NCBI GenBank assembly: GCA_022925895.1
Contig: JAKSYS010000363.1
Location: 1 to 61,246, forward strand
DNA from: Fragilaria crotonensis
Lineage: Eukaryota; Bacillariophyta; Fragilariophyceae; Fragilariales; Fragilariaceae
Reading direction: 5' to 3'
DNA length: 61,246 nucleotides
The notes beneath the pieces are model-generated. The model was given only the letters and a program-made list of their open reading frames with translations, was not told where the DNA came from and searched no databases. The translations under genes and the position numbers were made by a program. Every line of letters begins with the position of its first letter. The first letter of the stretch is position 1. Below are positions 7,710-45,767 of the stretch, one piece after another.

Positions 7710-10654
7710 ATGTCCGAAGGAGCGGCATCTTCCCCTTTTCCCACCATGACATCCCTCCCTCCAGACGAAGACCCCATCTTTGGATTCCGCATCTCAAAGT
7801 GGTTCGAACCGTCTGAGTTTACTCCAAATCCGCCTGAAACCAGTGAAGAACGCTACAAACGTCTTCATGACGAAGCAGAATACCGCCATTCTACTAATCA
7901 AACCCTCTGGCATCGATACGCCACACTCGGAAGATATGTTGTTGACGGCAATACCTTTGATCTCATCTGCAAGGAATATGAAGACAATCCGATCCGTCTT
8001 CATCTCGTCATCTGGTTCCAATACATGTACCATGTAGATCGAAAAATGGACATCCCGGACAAACTTGATGACTGGGCGACAAAACGCTCCCAAGCCTACT
8101 TGGCGATTCATGCACCTGGCGCCCTTCATTTGGACACTTTCAAAGTATCTTGGAAGAATTTTTCAAATACGAAACCAGTATTCAATCCGTGGAAAACTGT
8201 GGGCTCCAAATCTCGTCAGAAAACCAAGCAGAAGTCTATTACTATATCGGCGAACATTCCTAAAGCTATCCAGAAACAATCGGTCACACCAACTATTGTG
8301 GAAGAAATGGAAGAAGAAACCCAAGGGCCAGTTGAACCGCCTCTACCACCATCACAAGGAAAAAATCTCCAGCCTCAGAAAACCTTGATCGACAACGACT
8401 CTACTGCTTCGTCAGACGGCAAGGTGTCAGCACTCATCCCAAATCTAAATGTCCCGGTAAACGACGGCACAATGCGTATTACTCTCAGGTGGCATACAAA
8501 GTGGAAGTATCTCGCCTATCGAAAACTCATCTCAGATGACAGCTTCGATCTACGATCTTCTTACTGAACTTTTCAAGGACGAGGATGGTCTTCTCTACAA
8601 ATGGGACGACGAGGGTATGGAGCACTTCAATTCCATCTCTACAATGTCACCAGCTGAAGTAAGATCCTTTATATCTCCTTCGATCACAATTATTCCGAGC
8701 CAGTCGATGGTCATTGTCCCATTAAGATTTGGGTTCACGGGAAAAAATTCTTCAAGCTGGAGGAATCACCAAAGGACCAAGGCAGCTCTTGCTCGAAACA
8801 ACGTTACCGTGGGTATGTCTAATTCCAAAAGCACGAGCGGGAAGTTAGTCATCGCGGGATACATTCTTTTGAAAGCTCCTCGAACTACCCATCGACTCAG
8901 GTATCTTCAAAGTCTTCGAAGCAAACTTCCAGACACGACACCAGCATTCGATATTTTACTCTACCGCCGAACACCCTTGGAACAGGATATAAACCATCTC
9001 GTGGTCCAATGTGGAGAACATCATGTACACCCGTTGAGCCAAGCTTTACTTACATCCTTAGATGGATCAGGCGCAGGTGTCTACATACCAAGATTCGCTT
9101 TTGCCAGTATGTCGAGAGAAAAGCAATGATTCTCTTCGAAAAACATGACTCGTATATTAAAGCACTTCGATTCATCCCTCTATCTCCGATGATCAACAAT
9201 CTTGATACTATTCGCACAGAACATTTTCCAGACGGGACAACCATTGAGAGGTCAGTCAGAGATTGGGCATCTACTATCCTATCAGCCGATGGCAAGGAAT
9301 CAGCACACTGTGACGTGGTCAACGGAGGTTACGACCAAAGTCTTTTCTGTTGATGGCACCCCAGCACGAAGCTACTGTCAAGGCAGCATTTGAGGATTAT
9401 CGCCGCAGAGTGTTTCCATTTACACTACGTGAGGAACGTTTCCGAGAGACAATCGGCCCCCCTCCGTCAGTCATACATGTAGATCTAAAAGTCCGGGCAA
9501 ATCTTCAATTCGTTGACAAGCTATCATCTGTAACTACAAACTGGAAGCCATCGGATGATACATCTTACTCTGAAGCAGAAGAAGAGTCAAGCAATGTTTC
9601 TAACATCTCCCAAGAGCAACAACGACAAGAAAGCGACCGACTCAACACGGACACTGGCACTCAGAAGGACCCCAACGGAGCGAAGATGCCCCCAACCCCA
9701 CTCGAGTCCTTACAACGAATGTACGAACAGCGTTCAACTGACAATACGTTAGCATCCAGTACGTCATTGCACAGTGGATCAGACAGATCTCGCCAGTCGA
9801 TGTTATCAACATCCAGCGCAAGATTCATCGAACTTGAGGCAAGGATTACCCGTCAACAAACTGACTTTGATCGAAAGGACAAGATATCTTCGGAACGTTT
9901 GTCGCAAATTGAGAGGCAGCTACACCGATTTGACGAAGTCGATACAAAACTAGACACGATGAAAAGTGATATAGACAGAAAAATCGACGGGTCGCAAAAG
10001 GCTCAGACAGCGGAAATTCAAATCATGAGTGGGCAAATCTTAACAGTCATGGAAAAGCAAGTGGGGTTTGGAGCGTCAATAAACATTTTGAGTGACAAGA
10101 TCAGCTTGCTAATGGGCCTGATTACCGAGAAGAATCAATCAGAGAACCCAGACGACAACGTCAAACTTCGGAGATCTTCGCCAAACGCATCTCGGAGTGT
10201 TCAGCTAAACGACATAACTGCTGGAAAGGGACCATCTCAACTGAGACACACCAATGTAATGTCGCACCAAAACCCAAGACACGCGAGTGATGCCAGGGAA
10301 GAAGAAAGAAGTGTATTATCTCATCAGTCATCGGCAACAAAATCCTCATCCACATCCTCCACCGGATCTGAAAAATTACGATCTCCAGAGAAGAAAAAGC
10401 AGCGCCCTGTCACGTTTGATAAAGACGAGGAATATGATAATGATGAAATAGAGGATGACATCGACATGGAGGAACTACAAGAGGAACCCGAAGAAATGAT
10501 TAATTACAACAGTGATACCGTCGATCAAGGGGAGGATCCCACCTCAACACTACATGACGAAACAAACACCCAACCTGATTTGGACATTATTCCTACTGAT
10601 CTGGAGAGCCGATACAAAAACCAGCACTCTTCTGATCAGTGCGAAGAATCATGA
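7710..10654 (+). pseudogene. Retrotransposon ORF1 (nucleic-acid-binding/gag-like), frameshifted
   Basis: The ATG at 7710 follows a pyrimidine-rich leader. The protein is carried in three frames: to about 8540, 8540 to about 9125, and 9350 to 10654, with a short bridging frame at 9009-9353. The first part has no motif I can name and includes a K/Q/P-rich linker. The middle part is a globular region found next to the RT ORF in this element (YDLLTELFKDEDGLLYKW). The last part contains a long coiled coil (about 9830-10080, heptads around RLSQIERQL and KLDTMKSDID), a Ser-rich basic tract and a strongly acidic tract (DDIDMEELQEEPEEM). Coiled coils in ORF1p mediate multimerisation in LINEs. No zinc knuckle is visible. 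The stop TGA overlaps the ATG of ORF2. Confidence 0.6.
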
Positions 10655-13600
10655 TTCGAGATCTTGAAAGTGTAAGGGGGGATGAATATGATGATTCCTC
10701 TCCGATCGTCTACAGAAATCAACCGCTAAACATGTCAACTCCACGTATTCCAATATCCAGACTTCTGCTTGTGCCAAAGGCTAGACCAGGCAGAAAATGC
10801 AGAGATACGCCCTTAGATCCATATCCGACCAAGTACTACGGTGACGCCATTATACAGAAAAACAGCTCATCAACAAGAATTTTCTTCCACAACGTGAAAG
10901 GACTAACCTATTCTACTGCAGGAGAAGATTACCGCTACTACTTATCATGCCTTCAAGCATACGATATAGATATAGCAGGTCTCTCAGAAACAAACACGTG
11001 TTGGTCTCACCAACATCTGGCGGCGGAGTTCCGTGCAACTGTGCGACGCTATTATCCGCAGAACAAAGTCACGTTCGGTTGTGTTTCACCACTGATAGAC
11101 AAATGTCTCGAACGAGAGTCTTATCAGTCGGGCGGAAATCTCACACTAATAACGGAGCCCTCGTAGCTCAGGCTACCGCATCAAAGGTTTCAGACGATCC
11201 CAAGGGCTCGGCAGATGGAACAGCGTGACTCTGGAAGGAAAAAGCGACTCGAGAATTTCTATTATTACGGCATATCGATCATGCCCAGGATCTATAAAAA
11301 CGTCTCCAATCGGAAGCGTTTTTTCTAGAGAGTACACATATCTCAAAGATCAAGGTCATTCATCTTTAAATCCCCGCACAGTCTTTCTTGCAGATCTCCA
11401 TGAATTTATAAGGCCAATGCAAGAACAAGGAAACGCCATTATCCTTATGATGGACGCCAACGCAACAATTGAGAGTGACCAGAGGTTAGCATCCTTCATT
11501 CAATCATGTTCTCTACATGATCTTCACGCAAACGATCCAGCCACATCTACATACATTGGTGCAGCAGCGAGGCGCATCGATTATATCTTCGGATGTCAGA
11601 AGATTCGAGAGGTTATGTCACGCTCGGGAACTTTATCGTACTCAGAAGGCCCTCAATCCGATCACCGCGGCTTATACGTCGATCTCGAGTTAGGTTCTTA
11701 TCTTCAAAGTACAAAGATGAAGATATCTCAACCAACACATCGTTCGCTCCAGACTGGGAATCCCGAGCTGGTATCATCTTATCATTCGAGTATGCTCCAA
11801 TACTATTCGCAACATAACATGGAAAAACGCATTGATGATCTGTTCGATAATCATCAATCTCTGTCGAGAGAGGAAGTACGTAGGATTCTGACATCTTGGG
11901 ACAATGACCAAGGACGAGCTATGCTACATTCAGAACGCCTGCTAAGACGTCCTCCAAAAAAGTACCAATGGTCTCCCACACTACGGAATGCAGCAATTGT
12001 ATGTCGTTATTGGAAGTTGAGGCTTAGAGAAAGTTTGAACGGGGAAGATTACCAATGTACGTTTGCAAGGTGGCAAGCTCAAGTTCAAGTACACGATCCG
12101 GAGTTTATCCTTCCCCATTTAGGGGAAGTCCTACCAATAGCACGCATCCGGGAACGATTCAACCAAGCTACTCGGTTCTTTCGTAAGTGTCAACGCTCCT
12201 CGACAGATCTTCGTTTGAAAACATACCAGGATTTGCTGGACTCATACGAGGAAGACACTAATCCAAATACACAAAGTGAATCAAAAAGGAAGGCAAAGAT
12301 AGTTCAGAAAACTATTTCAGGCGAGATATGCAAAACCACCTTTCGGAACATTGGTCAAGTTGTCAAACCGTCAACATACGCCAGTATATCAAAATTACTC
12401 ATTCCTCGTCGACGAGCTGACGCAAACACGCCATTGCAATCAACGGAAATCTACTCCTTTCTACAGACAACGGATCAGTCCGACTTACTATGGGAAACAA
12501 TCTTGGACAGATCGGAAATCGAAAAACATCTTCTCGATTATAACAGGGAATCTTTTCGTGCGGCAGCGGAATCACCATGTGGACACGGAGTCGTACATGA
12601 CGCCATAACTTTTTCGAGTCTATCGCACGAAGCCTCTGAGCTCCTATCAGGAACAGTACCATCCGAATGGCATGGAGACGATGATATTCTTCGCGAGTTC
12701 CTCGCATCTTTCACGATCCCACCAACGGTAAAAGATCACGGTGACATATTGACTGAAGTCTCAGAAGCTGATATCTGCCGAGGTTTTAAAACATGGTCGG
12801 AAACAACTTCAACGTCTCCTTCTGGCCGTCATTTAGGACATTATAAAGCCCTCGTTCAAGAACCTACCTTGCTTCGATGTTTCAGTAGATTCATTAATAT
12901 TGCGATCTCAAGAGGGATTGCAATACCAAGATGGTGCAACGCAACAAATGTCCTAATCGAGAAGGATCCCGGCTACCCTCGGATTAACCGACTTCGAATC
13001 ATTCACCTTTTTGAAGCAGATTTCAATTTCTACCTAAAACTTCAATGGGGTCACAGGTTGGTTCGACAAGCATGCGATTTAGACCTTCTCCATTCTGGGC
13101 AACATGGATCAGTCCCCCGCCGAACATCGTTGGATCCCATAATGCTTACACAGCTAACAACGGACTTGTGTCGCATTCTCAAACATGACTTCGCTCGATT
13201 TGACAACGACGCTTCATCATGCTACGACAGAATTATCGTGGCACTGGGGATGCTTGCAGCAAGACGCTGCGGAATGCCTACTAATGCTATTCGTCTTCAT
13301 GCAGATGCTTTACAATTTATGAAGTACACTGTAAAGACCATACACGGCATATCAGAGGAAAATTACCATGGCACAGCATATGCTCCGCTATTTGGAACAG
13401 GACAAGGAAGTGGAGCATCACCTTCCGTATGGTTGACTTTGGTGGTCATAATGCTCAATACATTGGATCGCATAGTACCGGATCGTATAAACTTCGTGCC
13501 AGTCCAAGGAAAAGAAATCATTCAAGGCTAGTTGACGCTTTCGTAGACGACACATCACTGGGCTTTACATCAGCGGGGAACATGGACTATGATCAACTCA

Positions 13601-16359
13601 TTCAACGCCTTCAAGACATCGCGCAGACGTGGAGCATATTCTATTTCTCTCGGGCGGAAAACTGAATCTTTCAAAATGTTCGTGGTATGTCCTCTCTTGG
13701 GAGTGGAAAAGTGGCAGACCAACTCTTCGACCAATCACCCCGCAAGACAAAAGATACATCTCAAACAAGGTGACCAAACGCAAGAACTCGAGATAAGACG
13801 AACTGCTCTAACTGAATCAACAAGGATGCTGGGCGTGTATATCAACCCATTGGGTGATTTCTCCGATCATCTAGAGAACTTACGGAAAAAAGCACATACA
13901 TACGCATCACGTCTTATGTCGCCTCGTCTCACGGCAGCTCAAATACGCATTTTCCATAGGTCCATATACATACCATCAATGCGCTACAGTTTACCAGTCC
14001 TGGCAGTGGATGAAGAAGAACTTGCAACAGTACAATCACGAGTGGTACAGGTAATGTTACAACGAATGCATGTTAGTAGCACGATACCGACTTCGATCCG
14101 TCACGGACCGCTTGAACTCGGCGGACTCGGGATATACGATCTTAGGACAGAAGCAGGATTGGAGGCATTGAAATTTTTCGAAATGCGATTTACGCAGATT
14201 CGGAAGTGGGAAATCTGCTTGAATTAACCTGCAATACTCCCAACTGGAATCGGGCATCGGAGAACCAATATTAACACATCCGAACATATGTCTGCCATAC
14301 CTCACGCCGTCATGGATATTGTCTCTTCGACAATACCTATCATGCCACAACATGACAGTGACTATCACCGACTCCTACACCGTACCTCTTCAGAGTGGCC
14401 TCGATCAGTACATTATGCAACGTGAACACCTTCAACGATACACGCCGAGGCAGCAACGCGACTTAAATTTGGTAAGATTGTATTTACAAGTCACAACATT
14501 ATCGGAGATGTCAGATCCGGAACGTCAGCAAGCAATCCATCTGGATTACCTTGACGCAAAACGGCCCGTCAATTGGATAAGTGATCCTCGATGGCCTCGA
14601 CAACCAAACATATCGGCGTCACAACGTCGCTTATGGAAAAGATATATCACGTCTGTTTTTCTTCGCTACATTCCCTACTGGAAGGTCTCACCTTCACATC
14701 ATCAAGACAAAGTATCGGACCATCGGCAACTCAAGATTCTATACCTACGTCTTTCGCGTCGCTCCAAGAGTACCTACGTACGTTACCAAGGACTCAACGT
14801 CGATTAATTTCGGACTGGACGCAACACGCATCAGACCTGCAAGTATGGAGAGCCATGCGATCTCGAGAAAAACTACACTTGGCAACCGATGGAGGACTAC
14901 TTGGATCATCAAGTACTCACGGTTGGGTTTTAGCTACAAGCAAACTCGTTCTTTTTACTGGAGCAGGCCCAGTTGATGGTCCTTTTGATTTAGCATCATC
15001 AACTAGGAGTGAACTCGGCGGGCTAGCAGCATCTCTCGTGTTCATCGTGGCCATCTCTCGACATTGGGGACTGCGCCATAATGCATCATTCAAATGGTAC
15101 GCTGACAGCAAGGCAGCAATTTCGAGGGTTAACAAATTTGCTCGTTCACAAAAACACGCCACAAGAATGCCATATGATGCAGACCTTTTTATCTCTTATA
15201 CGAAGCCTGCTCAAAGAACTTCGACGTCCATTCAAACCGCTATGGGTGAAAGGTCATCAGGATAAAACACGGTCATACGACACCCTACCCCGTTCAGTAC
15301 GAATGAATATCGACGCTGACGTTCTGGCCACGCAATATCGCACTCACGGGCGTTTTCAATCATCACAGTCTGTGGATCATCAGCAGTGCCAACAAGTCTC
15401 CTTCACCATTAACGGTCGACGTATAAACAGTCACTTTGACGAAAGTATAAGGTACCATATTAATGGATACCACTTGAGACGATACTTACAGCATAAGAAC
15501 TCTTGGAGTGACGAAACCTGGAATGAAATTGACCTCGCTACGTTTGGAAAATCTTTTTGTCGATTAAGCCCAACAAAGCAGGTCCGACAAACAAAATTTG
15601 TACACGGCTATCTCCCGATCGGAACGAGAAGGTACAAGCAGGCTCGGATAAAGGATGAGAAACTGAAAGTGTGTCCGTGTTGCAAACTTCCACGAGGAAA
15701 CGGAAACGCATCTTCTCAGGTGTTCAAAAAATCCAGCTCAAGCATCGAGTTTACGTGAACTAGCTCGCTGTATTCACGGAGGAGATACTCACGCGGTGAA
15801 GTACTTGATCTCTGGGGCAATCCGACACTGGTCGACACAGGATGATCCGTATAACCCTGACATATCCGAATATCCGTCACATCTGCATTCATTAATAACT
15901 TCCGCACTTGATTCACAAGCAAAGATTGGTTGGGAACAGATGATGAAGGGTTTTCTAAGCACGACGTGGCGAACGCTCGCATCAAAGGATATGTTTGCTG
16001 AAAAGCCGACAAATGATGATCGACAAGGAGAATCTACGATTAAGACAACAATGAAAGGATTAGCAGAGCATTTTTCACGGCTTTGGGAGGCACGCAACAA
16101 AGTCCTACACGATACAAAGGATGAGGAAATGCGCGATGTCAGATCGATGGAAATCGCAGAAATCAAGTATTACTTCAGTCGACCTCATTTGCTTCGTTTC
16201 GACGATCGACACTATTGTGAAGGTTCTTTGGCAAAACTGTTGAATGGACGATCATCTAATAGACGCAGGTGGTTACGACGAGTGAAGACATCAATTGAGA
16301 TTCAGAAGGTACAAGGATCGCGACAAACACGAATCACTTCATTTTTCAGTCCCACATGA
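10651..16359 (+). pseudogene. Retrotransposon ORF2: endonuclease, reverse transcriptase, RNase H; frameshifted
   Basis: The start ATG (10651) lies inside the ORF1 stop as ATGA. The APE-type endonuclease begins with FFHNVKGL and GLSETN (about 10880-11000) and continues with ITAYR, MMDANA, RIDYIFG and SDHRGLYVD (to about 11690). In the reverse transcriptase, motif A is FARFDNDASSCYDR (about 13190), motif B is GTGQGSGASPSVWL (about 13400) and motif C is AFVDDTS (about 13540), so the catalytic box is FVDD rather than YADD. RNase H runs from ATDGG (about 14885) through SSTRSELGGL and WYADSKAAI to VKGHQD and NIDADVLA (about 15320). The tail has a CPCC cluster near 15675 and ends RITSFFSPT. Frame breaks near 11160, 11205, 13500, 13660, 14225, 14600-14800, 15265 and 15760 split it. 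Several look like one-base losses in short homopolymers, for example GGG to GG near 11150. Confidence 0.8.
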
Positions 16360-22948: not shown

Positions 22949-23610
22949 CGTAAAAAAATGGCTACCATTATCAATGATGGTCGCCCGAGGAGGATTGGAA
23001 CCATTTGACCTCGACGATCCAGCCGCCGGATCCTTGAGTACCGTCACACACAGTCTCAGGCGATTGCGCTATAGGGTACAGTACTACAAGTACCGTAAAA
23101 CTCTCTGGTTACAAGACCCCTCGGAGGATAAGACCCACCCCCGCCAAAAAAGGTCATTTCCCAGACATGTGCATGCCAACCCAGCTGTACGTCGTTCTCT
23201 CTAGAATGGACAACCTGACCAGAAAGAGGACAACAAGGGCTTCAATTCCATATATAACACTTACATAATCAGATGACGTTACGAATGATTTCTAGTCGAA
23301 TATACAGGTGGATGGACAACAGTTTTGACGGATTCCTCAGGGTGCCAACAGACGTTTTCGGGTTTTCGGCCCATAAAACAGACATTGCTGTGTGAGATTC
23401 ACGGGTTTCGCGTTGTCCAATTACAGGGATAATCTGCAACCGCACGACCCTGCGGCATCCCGTCATTCCAACCTTAAACTCAAGGGTATCGATTGAATAC
23501 CTATTCATCCCGTCAATTTTTGAATTCGATCTCGCCCAGGCTTGTGGGTTTTGCATCGCGGCGTGTCGAACAGTCACAATTTGCAGGGAGCTGCTCGCAC
23601 GGCAAGCACA
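22949..23610. other. Spacer between lipB and the EF-hand gene
   Basis: Nothing coding is recognised. It would hold the 3' UTR of lipB and the promoter and 5' UTR of the EF-hand gene. No clear terminator or promoter motif is visible. Confidence 0.4.
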
Positions 23611-26600
23611 ATGACCCTCATGTTCCGATTCCAATCGATTATACTTCTCTTGATTGATGGCATCGTTGCAAACAGATTATTTCTCATGGCCGATGCGGCA
23701 CCGTCAATGCAATATTGTACTAAAATACTGGTCTCGGCTGATTCGAACGGAGACGGAAGATTAAGTCGAAACGAATATGGGGACGCTCTACGAACTTTTT
23801 TGAGACGCGACATAATATCGGACGTGTTCGATGATGCTTCTGACGACGGGGTTTCGCAGAGACTGCAACTTATCTTCGACGACTTTCGCGGTCCAGATGA
23901 TTCTCTTGATATAGTGGGGGCGCTCTCATTGGATTGGACATGTCGAGCGATTGTCAAAGCGTTTGACGAACCCATTGTGACGGGGAGGACTTCGAGCAGC
24001 GTTGTAACTCAGCAGGATGAAGAACGCGAAATTTCTCTAGAGTATTGCTTCGTGGCAATGACTATCAATGACAGCGAAGGAGATGGATATTTGGACTCGA
24101 CGGAGTATCTACGCTTTGCTAAACTTTTGGCATTAGAGGACTTGGATTGCGCAACAAAATTCGAAGATCTTCCACAACAGCTCCAGGATAGTTTCGATGC
24201 CAGAAGTTCAAATGAGCTTGTTTCAATCGTTGGAGCAAAGCCAACCGACGTTGCATCGAATGAGCAGGTACAATTTCTGACGAACTGGTGTATTGAAACA
24301 ATCTCCCTGGTTGGAGAAGCAAGCGGACTTTGTGGTGTACCGACCTTGGCACCAAACACTGAGTTGCTACCGGTTGCCTCGAGTGTCCTGGAGTGCTTTT
24401 ACAGTTACGCCCAGGCAAACGAGAACGAGGACGCTTGGCTAAGCCGTCTGGAATACATCATTTTTGTGCAGAGGCTATCCGGTAACGACACTTCGCTTGC
24501 CAACCTAAGTTTCAATGAGCTGCCCTATGTTTTACAGAATAATTTTAATGATCTTGCGGTGGATGATGCTGAGATTGACATCTCAGGTTCAGAGGCAGGA
24601 TCAACGCCGACTACGGAAGAGCTTGAATATCTGACGCGAGTTTGTTATAACACCACCACCGCAATACAATTGGCTTTGTCACCGGGTTCTACCATGCCAA
24701 TACCGGCCCCGAGTGCGATTCCCACAATAGAGACATCAACGCCGTCAATTCAGCCCACATCAGAAAGTCCAAGTAGAATAAGTCTACCAACAGAAAGTCC
24801 CTCTTTCAACACAGACGGCCCAACAGAGCACGCTGAAGTTGAGACCCTTGAACCAACTGAGGCTCCCAGTGACACAACCCCTCGACCCACAATCACGCCG
24901 AGTATAATGTCCTTCGACCCCAGCGGGTCAAGTCAGGCTCCACCCACAAGTGCTCCAAATATAATATCCTTGGAACCTAGTGGATCGACTCAGGCTCCAA
25001 CCAACGCATCCCCTCAACCCACAAAATTACCGAGTACAATATCCTTGAAACCCAGTCGGTTAAGTGCGACCCCTTCTTCGTCAAACACCATCCCATCACT
25101 GTCTCCTACTGGATCGACAGGCGTATTCGAAGTGAGAAGCACATTTGTTATCTCCAACATAGTCGGAATATCAGCAAGCGACCTGAGTCCAGTGGCGGAG
25201 GAACGATTACGGCTAGACGCCAGCTACAGCCGGCTAGTACAACTAGTAACAAATAAGGAGTTCGGAGTCGAAGGATCGCGTCGACAAGCTCGACTCCTGA
25301 GAAGACGACTGCTGGTTCAATACATCTCGCAAAGTGCCCAAACCGTGAATCTTACTGATGTTTCATGCCCTCTTGCATCTGCGAACAACACGTTGTGTCA
25401 GACTGTTGAGGCATCATTCAACATCAACGCTACAAGTGATGAGAACCTTGTGACAGTTTTGGCTGACGCCAAAGCTGCTGTGGACGCCGGGATTCAAGAG
25501 GGACAACTGCAGTCCTTGTTGGATGAGCTGAATACGCCCCTCCGCATTGTGGTACCGTCAAATTCTGGAAATGAGACAATGTTCACGATATCTGCCTCCT
25601 TTGTCATCGCAAACCGCATGGGCTTCAGTGCTGTTGCATTCTCGGAAGGATCAAAAGGGTATACTGATATCAGGGCTGCTTTTGGTAACCTTTGTTCTTA
25701 CGTCGTCCAGGTCAACGGGACTGGAGCTCAGTACGTCGCCAACAGTTATCGAATTTTGGACGTCTGCGACATAAAATGTCCCAAATCACCCGCAGGCGTC
25801 TTTTGTCAATCCGTATTTGCAACGAGCCAAGTCGAAATTGAGGCGACTAATCCAGAATATATGGCCAATTCCATCACATCTGCTGTGGAACATGAGATCG
25901 AGATTGGCACGCTACAGACTCAGTTGGATTTCATCAATCCATGGTCGTCATACAGCATTGAGGAAGGATATGTTCCCACTTGTCCTGAAACCACTCAACA
26001 GTAAGCCCCATGAACGAGACCAGTCAGAAGGAAAGTCCAGCAAGTGACGGGAGTGGCACTAATTCCACCAACTTGACCTCAAACGTCGCCATTGGGGTGG
26101 GAGTTACTGTTGGTGTATGTATTCTTCTCGTTTTCTGTTATCTTGCAAGACCAAGACAACCGGCGAAGCCTTTAACAACCTTCACACGCGGTGATTACAT
26201 TGATGAATTCGGCACCACCGGACCAGGAAGGGCAAACAATGCACAAGATAACCTGGACGATGATGATGGATACTACGAAGAGGAATATCGATACGCACCA
26301 GTTCAAACCCGTATCCCGATATCACCCTACAAAGTCGAGGATCAACGCTTTTCGCAAGTATTTGGTCCTCCCAAGGTCTCACCCACGCCACTCCTAGGTC
26401 GCTCTTCTACCACTCCGCCAACGACGACGGGTTCTTCCGCATATGCATCCCATGGTTCGGAACAGGCTTTCCGACGAGGTGCAAATTCCTCTAGTGACAG
26501 CAACGCCTCAACTCCGCCTGCTTCCATGCCTCGCGTACCAATGGGCGCGCTTCGCGCGCCAATTGCAGAAGAGGAGGAGGATAGCGAATCGGACGATAGC

Positions 26601-37314: not shown

Positions 37315-40300
37315 ATGACTGTACGTTACATTCAAGGCAAGACGAAGGGCCCTGGTGGCTCATATCCGTCAAAGCAATCGAAGCATGGTTCCGACGTGGA
37401 ATCGCATACCGAGTTTTCTGTTCTCGCAGCCGACGACGCTGCGAGCATTGTGTCGCAGCTAGAGAATCCGAGATCCTTTTTACGTGGTGGAACGGATGAT
37501 GATAAAATCAAGTTGGTCGAAGAACTCTTTCACAAGGGAGCAGCGATTGGAGTCGGTGTCTGGGTCATTTTGATGATTATGGTGTACTTGTTCTCTCCTT
37601 ATGAGCTTTACGAGGAGCCTTCAGGATTCGAGCAGCTCTGCCATATTGTTGGAGGCACTCTTCTGATCGTCTCGAATGGTGCCAGACTTCTTCCCTTGCT
37701 CATGAAAGATAAGGGCTACAAGATTCTGAAGAGTGGCTTCATTGTTGGGTCATTAGCTGTGCAGTTGGTGGCGTTGGCATCTAACTACATCATGGCCTTC
37801 AGACCAACACCAGTTATGTACGATGAAATTAGTGGGCTACGCTTTCATCTCGTTCGATGGGCAGAGTGGATTCCCCTGGCCTTCTCATGGCCTTTCTCAC
37901 CATTAACGTCGACGCACCTTTCCGAGGGCCCACTAAGGTTGACTTTGTATTCCCTACCATGATGGCACTGAGTACCTCCGCCGGATTGCTCTTCCCACTT
38001 TGCCCCGATGAATACACATGGTGGGGTGTCATGGGCACCTCTTGGTCATTGTTCAGTATGATCTACGTTGTAACCTATCAGAAGGGTGTTGACTACTTGG
38101 AATTGAAGGGTGAAATCAAGGCCGGCGCCTCCAGGTCCAAAGCAAATGCTCAACAGGCTGAGCGGCTTGATCTTACCAAGTCCAGTTTCTCGTTGTGCAT
38201 TGCCATTAGTGTCACCTGGACTTTCCTTGCTCTCATGTTCACCTTTTTCAGTGTTGTGACCAAGCTTGCCAGGAAGGATAGTTGGCTCAGCAACCCATCT
38301 ATCCCAGTGGCCTTGACCTGCACCTTCGAAGTTATGTCCAAGGTATGGTACCTTGGGGCCCTGTTTGAAGCATACGGCAAGGTCTTTGACGAACAGGTCA
38401 GGGGTCATCGCCGACTTGAGGAATTGCGAAGCTTCATGTCCGCGGTGTGGGCATCATCCTCTGACGTGATCGTGTTCTGCTCGAAGAACAACGATATCGT
38501 CAGCGCTCGGATCAGTCCATCGTTTCTCAAAATCCTTGGAAGTTCAGCCGACACTCTAGGCTTTGACATCACAAACGAAGTCTCACTTGTCCTTGAGATC
38601 GATCAAAGTCAGGATTTGTTCTCCGTTGTCGCCATGGATCTTGATAGACCGGTGATGAGAAGTGATCTTTCTAGTGTGTCCTATGACTTGAATACCAGAT
38701 CGTTCAGGATCTCCAAGGCGGATGATCTTAGTGCTCCTGAAGTTAACCTTGCACGCATGGCGAAGCTTGCGATTGACGCTGTCACTCTAGCGCCGGCGTT
38801 ACTAGAAAGGATTAATCCAACTAAGTTCGTCGCTGAAGTCGGCAGGAAAGGAGATCTCTCGAGCGAGATGTCTTGCGAGGTTAACATTTCGCTATTGGAA
38901 GGAAGGTCATGCGTCTTGACTCTGCGTGATATCTCCGAGCGTCTTCATCGCTTCCAAATTGAGAAGAAGCTTGTCAAGGAAGTCACCTCCAGAAAGAAGG
39001 ACGAGGAAGCCAACAGATTCACTCGCCATGAGGTGAAGAATGCTCTCTTGGCTGCGATGGGGATTCTGGACCACCTGAAGGAGTTGATGCAGCGCAGTAA
39101 TGTGTTACCAAAGAGAAACACGGACGAAAAGAGTATGTTTCTCCTTTCTGACAATGCCCCTATGGTATTCATGGACATGGGCGGCGACGACGACACCACG
39201 TCTCCTCAGACTAAAGAAGTGGAAGAAGCTTTCAACGAGCTCGATACTACTCTCAAGGATGTTATGGACACAATTTTGGACGAAGCAATGGCGCGCGAGG
39301 TAAGAACTGTTACCGGCGATGATCGATTGACTATTCTCGATCCTTTCTCTAACTTTCCTTGTTTTCCTCTAGATTATTTACGGCGATTACACACCGCGCA
39401 AGGAGCGCATGAATGTTCCTGATGTCCTCGACTCTCTCCGCCGACGCGCCTCTCGCAGATTTCCGATGGATATCGTGCCTGCCGGTCCTCTTTTCCCCGT
39501 CCTTGAAATGGATCGTCAGTTGCTACGATACATTTACCGAAATGCCGTATCGAATGCTTGCAAGTATGGAAAGAAGGATGGCGTTGTCAGTACTCGCGTT
39601 ACGTACGAACGGAATTTGCAGGTCCTGACGATGCAAGTCATCAACCTGCCAGGTGTAGGTCACGATAAGCTTTGCCAGCTCTCAGCCTCAGAGGCAGCGA
39701 AAGTGTTTGAGCAGGATACTCAGCTGAAGGCTACGCAAGAGGGCACCGGAAGAGAGGCCGAATCGATTCGCAATGAATCATCTGGAAACGGTGCCTGGAT
39801 CATGAAGAAGGTGCGCTTGCTTGTTTTGTTGTTGTTGTACTTTTGTTTTCGCCCCCTTTGGTGACGCTAACAATTTTGCTTCGACAGTGCGCCGAATCAA
39901 TGAATGGAAAAGTTGATATCAAATTCGAGAAGACGAGAACTGTTTTTACTTTCTCGTGTGCTGTCACCCCAGTTTACATGCCAGAACGAAGCATGAGGAT
40001 CTCAACCCCAAGTGTATCCAACGAGGAGTTCGCCATCCCAGAAGGTACTTGGGGTGTTGTGATTGACGACTCGAGGATCCAGCGTAAAGTGTTGGGAACG
40101 TTCATGCAGTTGATTGGTATTGACAAGTCAAGGCAAGTGGGTTGAACTCCTCGAACGTTTGTGTAGCTGCCTCTACTAATACTTTCTTTCCATTTCACGC
40201 AGACAAGTTATCCTTGGGGCCACGATGGAAGAGATTCACGGCTTTGGCGATGCTGTTCAAAAGCTTTTGAGGCAAAATCCTCGTGACAAGTTCCTGTTAA

Positions 40301-40872
40301 TCGTGGATGAGAATCTGGATATTGTCGATGGCGGAACTCGTCACGAAACGGTATCCGGTTCTATAGCGACACAGAACCTTTTGTCTCAACTCGACAATAA
40401 CACCAAATCGCGTGTGTTGGCATTGATTCGCAGTGCAAACGATTCGGACATGGACATTCAAGTGTATAGAAAGAGAGCCCACGGGCATTTGCGCAAGGAG
40501 CCTCTCAAAAAGACTGGCAATCTTGAGCTAATCAAGCCTTGGTGGATCGAGCGGTTTGCCTCCAACCATGACCAGGACATGGACGATTCCAGTGGAAACA
40601 ACACACTTGATTTTGCTGTCGCGGATGATGTTCGCGAGTCACTAGGAGTGATCAACGCGTTGTCGGCAGTGGCGAGTGAGGCTCGATGGCAGGCAATTCG
40701 CGAGAAACTGCATGCTCTCAAGGGTGACTTGAAAGCAACGATTCCTATGGGAATCATTGGGAAGGTCGTAACCCAGATCGATCAACTCATGGCGAGTGAT
40801 AGGCTACCACGAGATTTCAGCAACAAATGGATCCGACTTCAGGGTGAAATAGAGACAATTCTCGCTACCTAG
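37315..40872 (+). CDS. Rhodopsin-like hybrid histidine kinase with receiver and HPt domains, copy 1 (full-length)
   Basis: The ATG at 37315 opens a 3-intron gene. Residues 75-355 form eight predicted transmembrane helices. Helices 2-8 align to microbial rhodopsin A-G: R181-W-A-E184-W matches the R82-Y-A-D85-W of bacteriorhodopsin, W236-W237 the helix E tryptophan pair, W302 the helix F tryptophan, and E339-V-M-S-K343 the D212-V-S-A-K216 segment with the Schiff-base lysine. Then come a PAS-like region (380-470), HisKA with H572 (FTRHEVKNALLA), an HATPase with N-box RNAVSNACKYGK and G-box SSGNGAWIMKK, a receiver (VVIDDS, phosphoacceptor in LLIVDENLD, IRSAND, RKEP) and an HPt (KLHALKGDL). It would carry a His-Asp-His phosphorelay in one chain. 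One C is missing at about 37884 (TTCTCATGG; the paralogue has TTCCTCATGG). Introns: 39300-39372, 39811-39887 and 40133-40202; the last is GC-AG. Rhodopsin assignment is by motif only. Confidence 0.8.
40133..40202 (+). other. GC-AG intron in kinase copy 1
   Basis: The exon ends TCAAG and the intron begins GCAAGT, the usual context of the minor GC donor class, and ends CACGCAG. Splicing gives K-S-R-Q-V-I-L-G, matching D-R-A-R-Q-V-V-L-G in the paralogue, where the intron at the same position starts GTACGT. Confidence 0.75.
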
Positions 40873-42507: not shown

Positions 42508-45500
42508 ATGTCTTACAGTCAGCGATCGCAGAGCATGTCGAAGGTCCACAGATCCCCCCAAATGCCGAAGCGAGAATCTCACTCCAAGAATGAATCGGAG
42601 ACGACGAACCCGAGATACAAAGAGTTCACATTTATGGCCCCTGACGATGCTGCGAGTCTTGTCTCCCGTCTCGAGAATCCCCGTTCCTTTCTCAATGCAG
42701 CGGCCGATACTGACACTGCCCTCGCCTTCCTCATGGCCTTTCTCACCGTTAACGTCGATGCGTCATTCAAGGGTAACGGCTCCCAATCACCTAAGGTGAA
42801 CTTCATTTTCCCCTCCATGATGGCTCTGAGCACCTCCGCTGGAATGATATTCCCATTTTGCCCGAACGAATATCTATGGTGGACTGTCATGGCCATCTCG
42901 TGGTCTCTTTTCTTTACTATCTATGTTGTAACCTTCCAAAAGGTAGTCGACTACTTGGAGTTGAAAGGAGAACTCAAGGCCGGCAGCGCACAGGCCAAAG
43001 CGAACGCTCAGCAAGCCGAACGTCTTGAAATAACCAAGTCCAGCTTCAATTTATGCCTATCAATCAGCATATCCTGGACTATGTTGGCTCTCATCTTCAC
43101 ATTTCTCGGTGTCGTCACCAAGCTTGCCAGAAAGGATAGCTGGGTCAGTAATCCGCATCTCCTCGTCGCAGTGACGTGCGTCTTTGAAGTCATATCCAAG
43201 ATCTGGTACCTCGGCGCACTCTTTGAAGCCTACCGCAAGGTCTTTGACGAGCAGGTTAGGGGGCGCCGCAGGCTAGAGGAGCTTCGTAGCTTCATGTCGG
43301 CGGTGTGGCTGTCATCGTCAGATGTCATCGTTTTCTGCTCAAAGAACGGTGGTATTGTAAGCGCCAAGGTCAGCCCAGCCTTCATCAATACCCTCGGTGG
43401 TTCTGCTGAGGCCCTCGGCTTGGACGCTGATGATCCGGCATCATTGATGCTTGAGATCGACGCAAGTCAAGATATATTTTCTGTTAGTTGCATGGACCTC
43501 GATCAAGCTATCGTTCAAAGTGACATTTCCAGCGTTCACACCGAGAATCTCAACTTGAGGACTTACCGGATCTCCAAGGCAGAGGACATCAACGCCCCTG
43601 AAGTCAATCTCGCACGCATGGCGAAGCTTGCTCTTGACGCTGTTACTCTGGCTCCAACGTTGCTGGACAGTAGGATCAACCCCACCAAGTTCGTGGCTGA
43701 ATCGGGCAGGAAAGGGTTCGCTGCGACTGAAATGTCTTGCGAGGTTCACATTTCACTTTTGGAAAGCAGGTCTTGCGTCTTGACTTTGCGCGATATCTCC
43801 GAACGTCTTCATCGCTTCCAAGTGGAGAAGAAGCTCGTTGAGGAAGTTACTTCCAGAAAAAAGGATGAGGAAGCCAATCGATTCACTCGCCATGAGGTGA
43901 AGAATGCTCTCCTGGCTGCCATGGGAATCCTTGACCACTTGAGGGATCTGATGCAGCGCAGTAATGTGTTACCCAAGAGAAACACGGAGGGTTTGGTTGT
44001 CGTCTCCGAAACTGCTTCGATGTCATTCTTGGACATCGGTGGAGATGACGACAGTGTGTCTCCTCAGACCAAGGAAGTCGAAGCTACTTTCAACGAGCTT
44101 GACGCCACTCTTAAGGACGTTATGGACACTATTTTGGACGAAGCGATGGCTCGCGAGGTAAGTCATTTGATGTTTTGCATTCGGGATTGCGCCGCCCTCC
44201 AACGGGTATCTCAATAAACACTATCTGTTCCTACAGATTATTTATGGGCATTATACCCCAAGGAAGGAACGCATCAACGTCCCTGATGTTCTCGCCTCGC
44301 TTCGGAGAGGAGCATCGCGCAGATTTCCATTGGATGTGGTTCCTTCTGGTCCTTTGTTCCCTGTCCTTGACATGGATCGTCAATTGCTGCGGTACATCTA
44401 CCGAAATGCGATATCGAATGCCTGCAAGTTCGGTCGAAAAGATGGCGTTGTCAATACTCGTGTCAACTACGATAGTCACTTGCAACTGCTGACGATGCAA
44501 ATCATTAACTTACCTGGAGTTGGCCATGAGAAGCTCTGCAAGCTTTCTGCCGCTGAAGCGGAAAAGATCTTTGAAAAGAACACTAAACTCAAGGCCACGC
44601 AAGAAAGCGAAACGGATGGAGCCGCGTCCAATGATGACTCGACCGGCAATGGCGCGTGGATCATGAAGAAGGTACGAATGCGCTGCCTCGGGTTCACATC
44701 CTTATTTATCCGGTGTGACGATGACTTACAATTGTTTCTTTGTATCAGTGCGCGGAGGCCATGAACGGACGGCTGGATATCAAGTTTGAGAAGACGAAAC
44801 GGTATTTTCGTTCTCATGTGCATGTTCTCCAGTGTTTATGCCAGAACGGCAAACACTGCATCAACGGCCTGTCGGCTCCGTCAACATGTCAACCTCCGAA
44901 GAATTTGTCATTCCCGATGGCACGTGGGGCGTTGTGATTGACGACTCAAGAATCCAAAGGAAGGTTTTGGGCACATTCATGCAGCTTATTGGAATTGATA
45001 GAGCTAGGTACGTGCGGTGATCACTAATACATGTCTTCCTCATGTTTTGAAATGATGCGACTCATATGGTGTTTCATTCCCTCTGTTGCGAAAAACTACA
45101 GGCAAGTCGTCCTTGGAGCTTCGAAGGACGAGATTCACGGCTTTGGCAAGGAGGTTCAAAGGCTGCTGAAGGAAAATCCGAATGATAAATTCATTTTGAT
45201 CGTCGATGAGAATCTTGACATTGTGGATGGAGGAACTCGTCACGAAACGGTATCTGGTTCCATTTCGGTTCAAAACCTGCTGTCAGAACTTGACCAAAAT
45301 TCGAAGTCTCGTGTCTTGGCGTTGATTCGCAGTGCCAACGACTCGGACATGGACATTCAGGTGTACAAGAAGAGAGCTCATGGACATTTGCGAAAGGAAC
45401 CGCTCCAAAAGACTGGTAATCTCGAATTGATCAAGCCATGGTGGATCGAACGTTTTGGGGTGGAAGTCCCATGATGGATGATTCTAGTTTGAACAATTCG

Positions 45501-45767
45501 TTGGAATTCGGAGTGGCCGATGACGTTCGGGAATCGCTTAGCGTTATCAGCGCCCTCGCCGTCGTGGCGAGCGATGCTCGTTGGCAGGCCATTCGTGAGA
45601 AATTGCACGGCCTCAAGGGCGATTTAAAGGCAACTATGCCAATGGCCACTGTGGGCTCGATCGTTGCCGAGCTGGATCGACTCATGGGCCAAGAAAAGGT
45701 ACCTCGGGATTTCAGCAACAAGTGGCTCCGTCTCGAAAGTGAGATAGAGTGCATTCTTGCCGTGTGA
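42508..45767 (+). CDS. Hybrid histidine kinase, copy 2, with truncated rhodopsin-like domain
   Basis: Tandem paralogue of the gene at 37315-40872 with the same three intron positions (44158-44236, 44672-44748, 45008-45101; all GT-AG). The first 62 residues correspond to those of copy 1 (DDAASLVSRLENPRSFL), but the sequence then jumps in frame to ALAFLMAFLTVNVD. About 122 residues are missing: the extra helix, helices A and B and the first half of C with the R-W-A-E-W motif. Helices D-G, including E227-V-I-S-K231, remain, as do HisKA (TRHEVKNALLA), HATPase, receiver and HPt. Two one-base losses, at AAA 44797-44799 and GGGG 45457-45460, break the reading frame, but the paralogue shows the expected frame on both sides. 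If the deletion is real the protein cannot form a rhodopsin, though the kinase core could still work. Confidence 0.8.

Follow-up and report, generated by a model that had tools for sequence, protein, structure and literature searches.

The window considered here is a stretch of 61,246 nucleotides of Fragilaria crotonensis DNA, the whole of contig C296 in an assembly of 62.1 Mb and 881 contigs. Its forward strand carries, at positions 37315-40872, a gene (gene 1) that in our judgement probably encodes a strongly diverged eight-helix microbial (type-1) rhodopsin fused, as a single polypeptide, with a hybrid histidine kinase. A preliminary description of this DNA had proposed this coding span, with a rhodopsin-histidine kinase encoded there as a single chain. 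The span is upheld; a single open frame is not, in that the reading requires three introns and the crossing of a single-base frame break near 37,884. As deduced from reading frames and splice signals alone, gene 1 consists of four exons, with the break lying inside helix C, and its joined product has 1,112 positions with an X at the break (Table 1). Once the exon pieces are joined, the residues singled out previously (R181, E184, W302, E339 and K343) fall at the numbers given to them. The origin of the gene in a diatom is likewise confirmed: silicon-transporter genes are found in the same genome (18 of 19 matches above the cut-off in a genome search, best expectation value E 4.0e-193), and the organism is therefore a diatom.

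A second contig, C384, apparently represents the other haplotype; of 5,353 bases aligned between the two, 50 are mismatched. It is open across the break near 37,884 and has frame breaks elsewhere, at places where the window is open. Between the haplotypes, the exons of gene 1 show four single-base length differences and one of three bases; those of a single base are located in short homopolymer runs and have the appearance of assembly errors. Residue numbers for C384 are those of the window plus one after residue 205.

Table 1. Features of gene 1 and its tandem paralogue (positions in the window)
Feature	Position	Strand	Basis or comment
Exon 1, first part: N-terminus, TM0, helices A and B, start of helix C	37315..37886	+	Reading frames; ends at the single-base break near 37884
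Extra N-terminal helix TM0, residues 74-94	37534..37596	+	Hydropathy, predicted helix; ends set by hand
R181 codon	37855-37857	+	Within exon 1, first part
E184 codon	37864-37866	+	Within exon 1, first part
Exon 1, second part: end of helix C to helix G, PAS-like and HisKA-like stretches	37887..39299	+	Reading frames; non-synonymous divergence (dN) far below synonymous divergence (dS) versus paralogue
E339-x3-K343 in helix G (D212/K216 positions of bacteriorhodopsin)	38328..38342	+	Alignments
H572, candidate phosphorylated histidine in HEVKNALL	39027..39029	+	Motif only, no Pfam HisKA match
Intron 1, GT-AG	39300..39372	+	Splice signals; matching place in paralogue
Exon 2: most of HATPase_c, N-box (N719), altered G1 box (NLPGVG)	39373..39810	+	Pfam, box alignment
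Intron 2, GT-AG	39811..39887	+	Splice signals; matching place in paralogue
Exon 3: end of HATPase_c, first part of receiver-like domain (D868-D869)	39888..40132	+	Reading frames, motifs
Intron 3, GC-AG, inside receiver-like domain	40133..40202	+	Splice signals
Exon 4: rest of receiver-like domain, HPt-like domain, stop codon	40203..40872	+	Motifs; HPt sub-threshold in Pfam
D925 codon (receiver-like)	40306-40308	+	Motif, exon 4
H1060 codon (HPt-like)	40711-40713	+	Motif, exon 4
Tandem paralogue	about 42508-45767	+	Retains E/K of helix G; window haplotype lacks TM0 to mid helix C

The membrane domain is eight-helical, as had been proposed. Seven segments have a mean hydropathy of at least 1.19, and helix E stays under the threshold of 1.0; both AlphaFold models described below draw a long helix at its position, and the model built without rhodopsin rows has eight long helices in all. 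When the helix ends are placed by hand, the helix cores contain no Asp, Glu, Lys or Arg other than R181, E184, E339 and K343 (the last two being E340 and K344 in C384 numbering), H110 also lying there, and the predicted cytoplasmic loops contain 24 Lys and Arg residues versus 4 in the outer ones. A layout with both termini inside, eight helices and positive-inside charges is thereby supported. At the level of layout, the proposed extra N-terminal helix of enzyme rhodopsins is also borne out: TM0 is present, both termini are inside, and the enzyme part, with its HATPase_c domain, follows helix 7.

The four buried charges align with the Schiff-base residues of bacteriorhodopsin. In all 16 of 16 unsupervised MAFFT runs (four rhodopsin sets, each in four modes), R181, E184, W185, W238, E339 and K343 fell on R82, D85, W86, W138, D212 and K216, in agreement with the hand alignment that had placed R181/E184 and E339-x3-K343 at the R82/D85 and D212/K216 positions. 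The third rhodopsin helix has its R82/D85-type pair in R181 and E184, and the last helix has, in both paralogues, an acid four residues before a mid-helix lysine, the acid being Glu and not the usual Asp. For the tryptophan assigned to helix F, W302, the residue number was correct, but its equivalence to W182 is doubtful, that place being occupied by F309 in 14 of 16 alignments and by W302 in 2 of 16 (F310 and W303 in C384 numbering).

Several controls address how often such an arrangement would arise by chance. When residues were shuffled within 12-residue stretches, the four key residues came to lie on their columns in 2 of 300 cases against bacteriorhodopsin alone and in 4 of 300 against 12 rhodopsins. 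For two cyanobacterial genomes, all four did so in 0 of 12 unrelated membrane windows with at least six hydrophobic segments, which is a small control; Rxx[DE] was found in 6 of 386 hydrophobic segments and [DE]xxxK in 5 of 386, and a single protein among 23 with at least six such segments held both motifs anywhere. A chance origin of the charge quartet is made unlikely, though not impossible, by these shuffle, segment and membrane-window controls.

When 17 rhodopsin rows were added to the family's alignment (20 rows in total), AlphaFold produced a model with a predicted local distance difference test score (pLDDT) of 56.9 and a predicted template-modelling score of 0.45. In Foldseek, four chains of the Salpingoeca rhodopsin phosphodiesterase rank first with this model (E 1.5e-4 to 6.0e-4; TM-score 0.55-0.59 by query and 0.56-0.70 by target) and are the sole matches at or below 1e-3, other microbial rhodopsins following at E 5.0e-3 and weaker. 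All 50 rows shown by VIA-align are microbial rhodopsins. Bestrhodopsin 7pl9 (Z 16.8, root-mean-square deviation (rmsd) 4.1, 273 residues aligned) and the structures 7d7q (Z 16.6, rmsd 4.7, 268 aligned) and 7cj3 (Z 16.0, rmsd 3.9, 255 aligned) are tied among themselves, and bacteriorhodopsin 7q38 has Z 14.9, rmsd 3.4 and 223 aligned. The added rhodopsin rows have no TM0, although a few leader residues in them align with its first columns; its modelled placement, as in an eight-helix enzyme rhodopsin, is the part of the model least put in by those rows.

Downstream of the membrane domain, Pfam detects HATPase_c above its cut-off (residues 709-831, E 6.2e-7) and an HPt domain below it (E 0.096 in gene 1 and 0.051 in the paralogue), with no match to PAS, HisKA or receiver families. 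Of the PAS, HisKA, HATPase, receiver and HPt modules that had been described, HATPase_c therefore stands, HPt is sub-threshold, and the other three are recognised at motif level; PAS-like, HisKA-like and receiver-like are putative labels for these stretches, taken from the sequence. NCBIfam gives eight families, all on the kinase core or extending thence into the receiver and none near its cut-off (best ArcB, 2.6e-5). H572, D868-D869, D925, RSANDS, HLRKEP and H1060 (HALKGD) follow one another as the H-box, receiver and HPt normally do, and we take H572, D868-D869, D925 and H1060 to be the corresponding motif residues of these three. Compared with four bacterial kinases, which were chosen by a pattern requiring such boxes, the N-box is intact.

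A genome search with helices C-G returned four matches, two on C296 and two on C384, and hence there are two tandem genes in two haplotypes. The paralogue is 74-76% identical to gene 1 over the aligned membrane part, and its introns can be cut at places matching those of gene 1. In the window it is about 270 nucleotides shorter than in C384, with the result that TM0 to mid helix C are removed; the C384 copy retains part of the missing stretch, with several insertions and deletions. Of the four key residues, the helix G pair (E and K) is present in both copies and the helix C pair (R and E) in that of C384. Changes of frame occur in exon 3 of the paralogue and between its receiver and HPt. The window copy is open over 42508-44217, from its start into the kinase region, with the junction of the deletion near 42715, and would yield a kinase bearing half of the sensor, without R/E. 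At about 45440-45500, the frame changes between receiver and HPt are present in both haplotypes; this may sever the HPt from the rest of the chain, or may reflect an error made identically in each.

Substitution rates between gene 1 and the paralogue were computed for six parts, leaving out TM0 to the start of helix C and exon 3. The values of dN and dS are 0.158 and 1.297 for membrane helices C-G, 0.189 and 1.73 for the PAS-like stretch, 0.091 and 0.846 for the HisKA-like stretch, 0.15 and 2.54 for HATPase exon 2 (a ratio of about 0.06, with dS near saturation), and 0.091 and 1.283 for the receiver part of exon 4; in the HPt, dN is 0.205 and dS is saturated. The ratio is near 0.1 in each of the five parts with measurable dS, and the six compared parts are under purifying selection. 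As for further family members, weak kinase matches on contigs C299 (E 0.247) and C488 (E 0.776) yielded no established one, the whole protein giving nothing better than E 6.3 at C299, and three scans of IMG/VR for relatives yielded 49, 8 and 10 pattern matches, none of them confirmed.

We favour an enzyme rhodopsin because the buried charges form the Schiff-base set on the correct helices, together with the extra helix of enzyme rhodopsins. A considerable body of results nevertheless weighs against this interpretation. The search with the Pfam Bac_rhodopsin model that had been proposed as a check failed to list that family at E up to 10, for either the whole protein or the membrane domain; PDB sequence searches with a single sequence or a three-row profile gave no rhodopsin, hhalign gave no match to 79 rhodopsins, and in a custom profile alignment whose ends were left free the core stayed entirely unaligned. 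In the profile-global alignment, the whole-domain score was reached by 19 of 240 shuffles, and all four key residues were aligned in 4 of 240. At its middle gap setting E184, W185, W238, W303, E340 and K344 (C384 numbering) lie on their columns; R82 finds no partner at any of the three settings, D212 finds none at the softest, and the stiffest pairs K318 instead of K344. E339 and K343 are both aligned at one setting, the lysine only at one, and neither at one. Equivalents of P186 and W189 are not evident in this alignment. Glu at the D212 place is itself unusual, the 83 aligned rhodopsins having Asp in 81 cases and a gap in 2. The structural evidence is partly circular and no independent proof, because the 17 added rows suggested the seven-helix fold to AlphaFold. 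From the family's three rows AlphaFold reached a pLDDT of 43.3, and the Foldseek and VIA rows for that model are mostly soluble helix bundles, with no microbial rhodopsin among the matches shown, which is uninformative. Even with the rhodopsin-row model, class A receptors enter the Foldseek list from rank 11 at E 1.5e-2 and weaker, values like that of bacteriorhodopsin. Finally, the kinase part has departures from consensus: in the G1 box (NLPGVG), Asn replaces Asp and a residue has been added, with G-x-G kept, and in the G2 box Ser takes the place of the first Gly, with G-x-G (as GNG) kept.

The membrane results could also be explained by a non-retinal eight-helix sensor histidine kinase, in which the R-E/E-K cluster would be a network of salt bridges, serving either to bind a different ligand or simply to stabilise the bundle; the resemblance to rhodopsins would then be convergent. 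Such a protein would account for the failure of every profile search to tie the membrane domain to rhodopsins, for the non-significant profile-global score and for the lack of a confident fold when rhodopsin rows are left out. We nonetheless regard it as somewhat unlikely, since the helix, order, side and spacing of the four buried charges, with W185 beside E184, are rare in the controls, TM0 and the topology match those of enzyme rhodopsins, and no other membrane-sensor family scores above its cut-off. A best profile match to another seven-transmembrane sensor family, the outcome that the preliminary description had set against its own proposal, did not occur. PHROGs gave no family for the membrane part, and elsewhere in the protein three families matched weakly (E 0.03-0.09); sub-threshold Pfam matches to DUF2417, Nup188_SH3-like, p31comet, DUF7032 and DUF6863 were taken as noise.

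A second alternative, which overlaps with the rhodopsin-kinase reading, is that the protein is a retinal photoreceptor whose kinase core no longer makes phosphohistidine and which would act as a light-controlled phosphatase, a scaffold or a receiver/HPt reservoir. It would explain the altered G1 and G2 boxes, which are identical in the paralogue, and the light-driven phosphorelay as originally described, which requires an active kinase, is not supported by boxes altered in this way. Yet the N-box, H572, D925 and H1060 are kept, HATPase_c is above the cut-off, and the low dN/dS of the HATPase exon, with dS near saturation, is that of a part in use, so that we find a core without kinase activity quite unlikely. 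That gene 1 is merely a decaying gene or an assembly artefact is very improbable. In its favour are the frame break, the length differences between haplotypes, and a paralogue that is interrupted or truncated in each of them; but in gene 1 the window and C384 are each open where the other is broken, the single-base differences sit in short single-base runs as assembly errors often do, and all six compared parts have a dN much lower than dS.

For a rhodopsin fused to a hybrid histidine kinase, we infer the fold, retinal binding, light dependence, kinase activity and the order of phosphate transfer, and the following scheme can be envisaged. Retinal would be bound as a Schiff base on K343 of helix G, with E339 and E184 as its counter-ion pair and R181 close by. 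Isomerisation of the retinal by light would move helix G, which is predicted to extend on the cytoplasmic side as a helix leading into the PAS-like linker, and movement of the linker would alter the state of the H572/HATPase core. Phosphate could then pass from H572 to D925 of the receiver, to H1060 of the HPt and on to a separate response regulator. The effect of light on the kinase could have either sign. A broader proposal, to which we assign about an even chance, is that these genes represent a diatom family of retinal-based sensor kinases that is beyond the reach of current rhodopsin profiles and so was missed in photoreceptor surveys, with an all-glutamate counter-ion pair, an altered ATP site, a light-controlled one-chain phosphorelay, and a tandem paralogue that keeps its kinase but in one haplotype is without half its sensor.

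The genome has nine matches to carotenoid-cleaving dioxygenases, three of them pieces on a single contig, and a source of retinal is therefore possible in this diatom. A genome search with PF01036 listed no rhodopsin, as was also the case in its 14 control genomes, and hence absence is not established; the same search is positive in 2 of 2 genomes known to hold rhodopsin and above the cut-off in 9 of 194 genomes of one phylum (that of genome G001). With a cyanobacterial rhodopsin as query, the best match in the genome had only E 0.06. The genome-wide HATPase_c search returned 21 matches, among which the window gene itself, with its domain split over exons, is missing, and it follows that such scans, including that with PF01036, cannot show absence.

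Elsewhere in the window, ten other long frames were scanned, of which four gave matches above the Pfam cut-off (a lipoyl ligase, Band 7, a lysine methyltransferase and a class II aldolase). Upstream of both sensor genes, at 23524-26001, is an 826-codon frame with weak EF-hand matches (E 4.4e-5, below the cut-off). A run of overlapping long plus-strand frames at about 9314-16356 is perhaps a broken mobile element; the frames 9314-10651, 11153-13528 and 15027-15755 have no Pfam match at E 0.01. Among the silicon-transporter matches, three are consecutive inside one 1456-aa open frame at C97:29749-33762, like a fused triple transporter, and two lie inside one 1008-aa frame on contig C771.

Diatoms account for a large share of marine photosynthesis. 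If our interpretation is true, gene 1 would represent a new branch of a kind of receptor so far known from green algae, and a retinal-based kinase would add a direct route from light to phosphorelay in diatoms. It would also mean that enzyme rhodopsins can escape profile-based annotation, and it would make a Glu/Glu counter-ion arrangement open to testing. Light-absorbing proteins reported from diatoms include xanthorhodopsin pumps (PMC10627834), aureochromes and a cryptochrome (PMC12558739) and phytochromes (PMC13150293). In the open-access literature searched, with passages of PMC12558739, PMC6798134, PMC6944256, PMC10627834, PMC7644710, PMC2781859, PMC8582858 and PMC13150293 included, no diatom histidine kinase rhodopsin is described. 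The xanthorhodopsin FcR1 of Fragilariopsis cylindrus is a proton pump according to PMC10627834; xanthorhodopsins of this type are also diatom rhodopsins, but differ from the proposed sensor kinase in being pumps.

With hybrid sensor histidine kinases (PF02518), gene 1 shares HATPase_c above the cut-off and H-box-, receiver- and HPt-like motifs in the usual order; unlike them, it has HisKA and receiver regions undetected by Pfam, and G1 and G2 boxes off consensus. The diatom protein differs from the histidine kinase rhodopsins of green algae in its PAS-like linker, its receiver plus HPt, its altered G1 box and the lack of any cyclase seen. The algal proteins are, we presume, detected by the Pfam Bac_rhodopsin model. 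Chlamydomonas HKR1 and Ostreococcus Ot-HKR are described as combining rhodopsin, kinase and response-regulator domains in one chain (PMC12558739, PMC6798134), and light inhibits the kinase in the green algal proteins (PMC12558739). By that description the likeness extends to a rhodopsin-type domain, a kinase and a response-regulator part in one chain, HisKA and receiver being at motif level here, and the diatom protein would work like its green algal counterparts. The membrane domain invites a second comparison, with the Salpingoeca rosetta rhodopsin phosphodiesterase (Rh-PDE; 7cj3, 7d7q). According to PMC7644710, Rh-PDE has eight helices with TM0, both termini inside, a Glu164-Trp165 pair and Asp292 at the D212 place. 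PDB searches with the diatom protein gave no sequence match to Rh-PDE, and the two differ in output, which is a phosphodiesterase in Rh-PDE, and in the residue at the D212 place, which is Asp292 there and Glu in the diatom protein. They are nevertheless alike in having eight helices with TM0, N and C termini inside and a lysine in TM7, and in the Glu-Trp pair at the D85/W86 place, Glu164/Trp165 in Rh-PDE and E184/W185 in the diatom protein.

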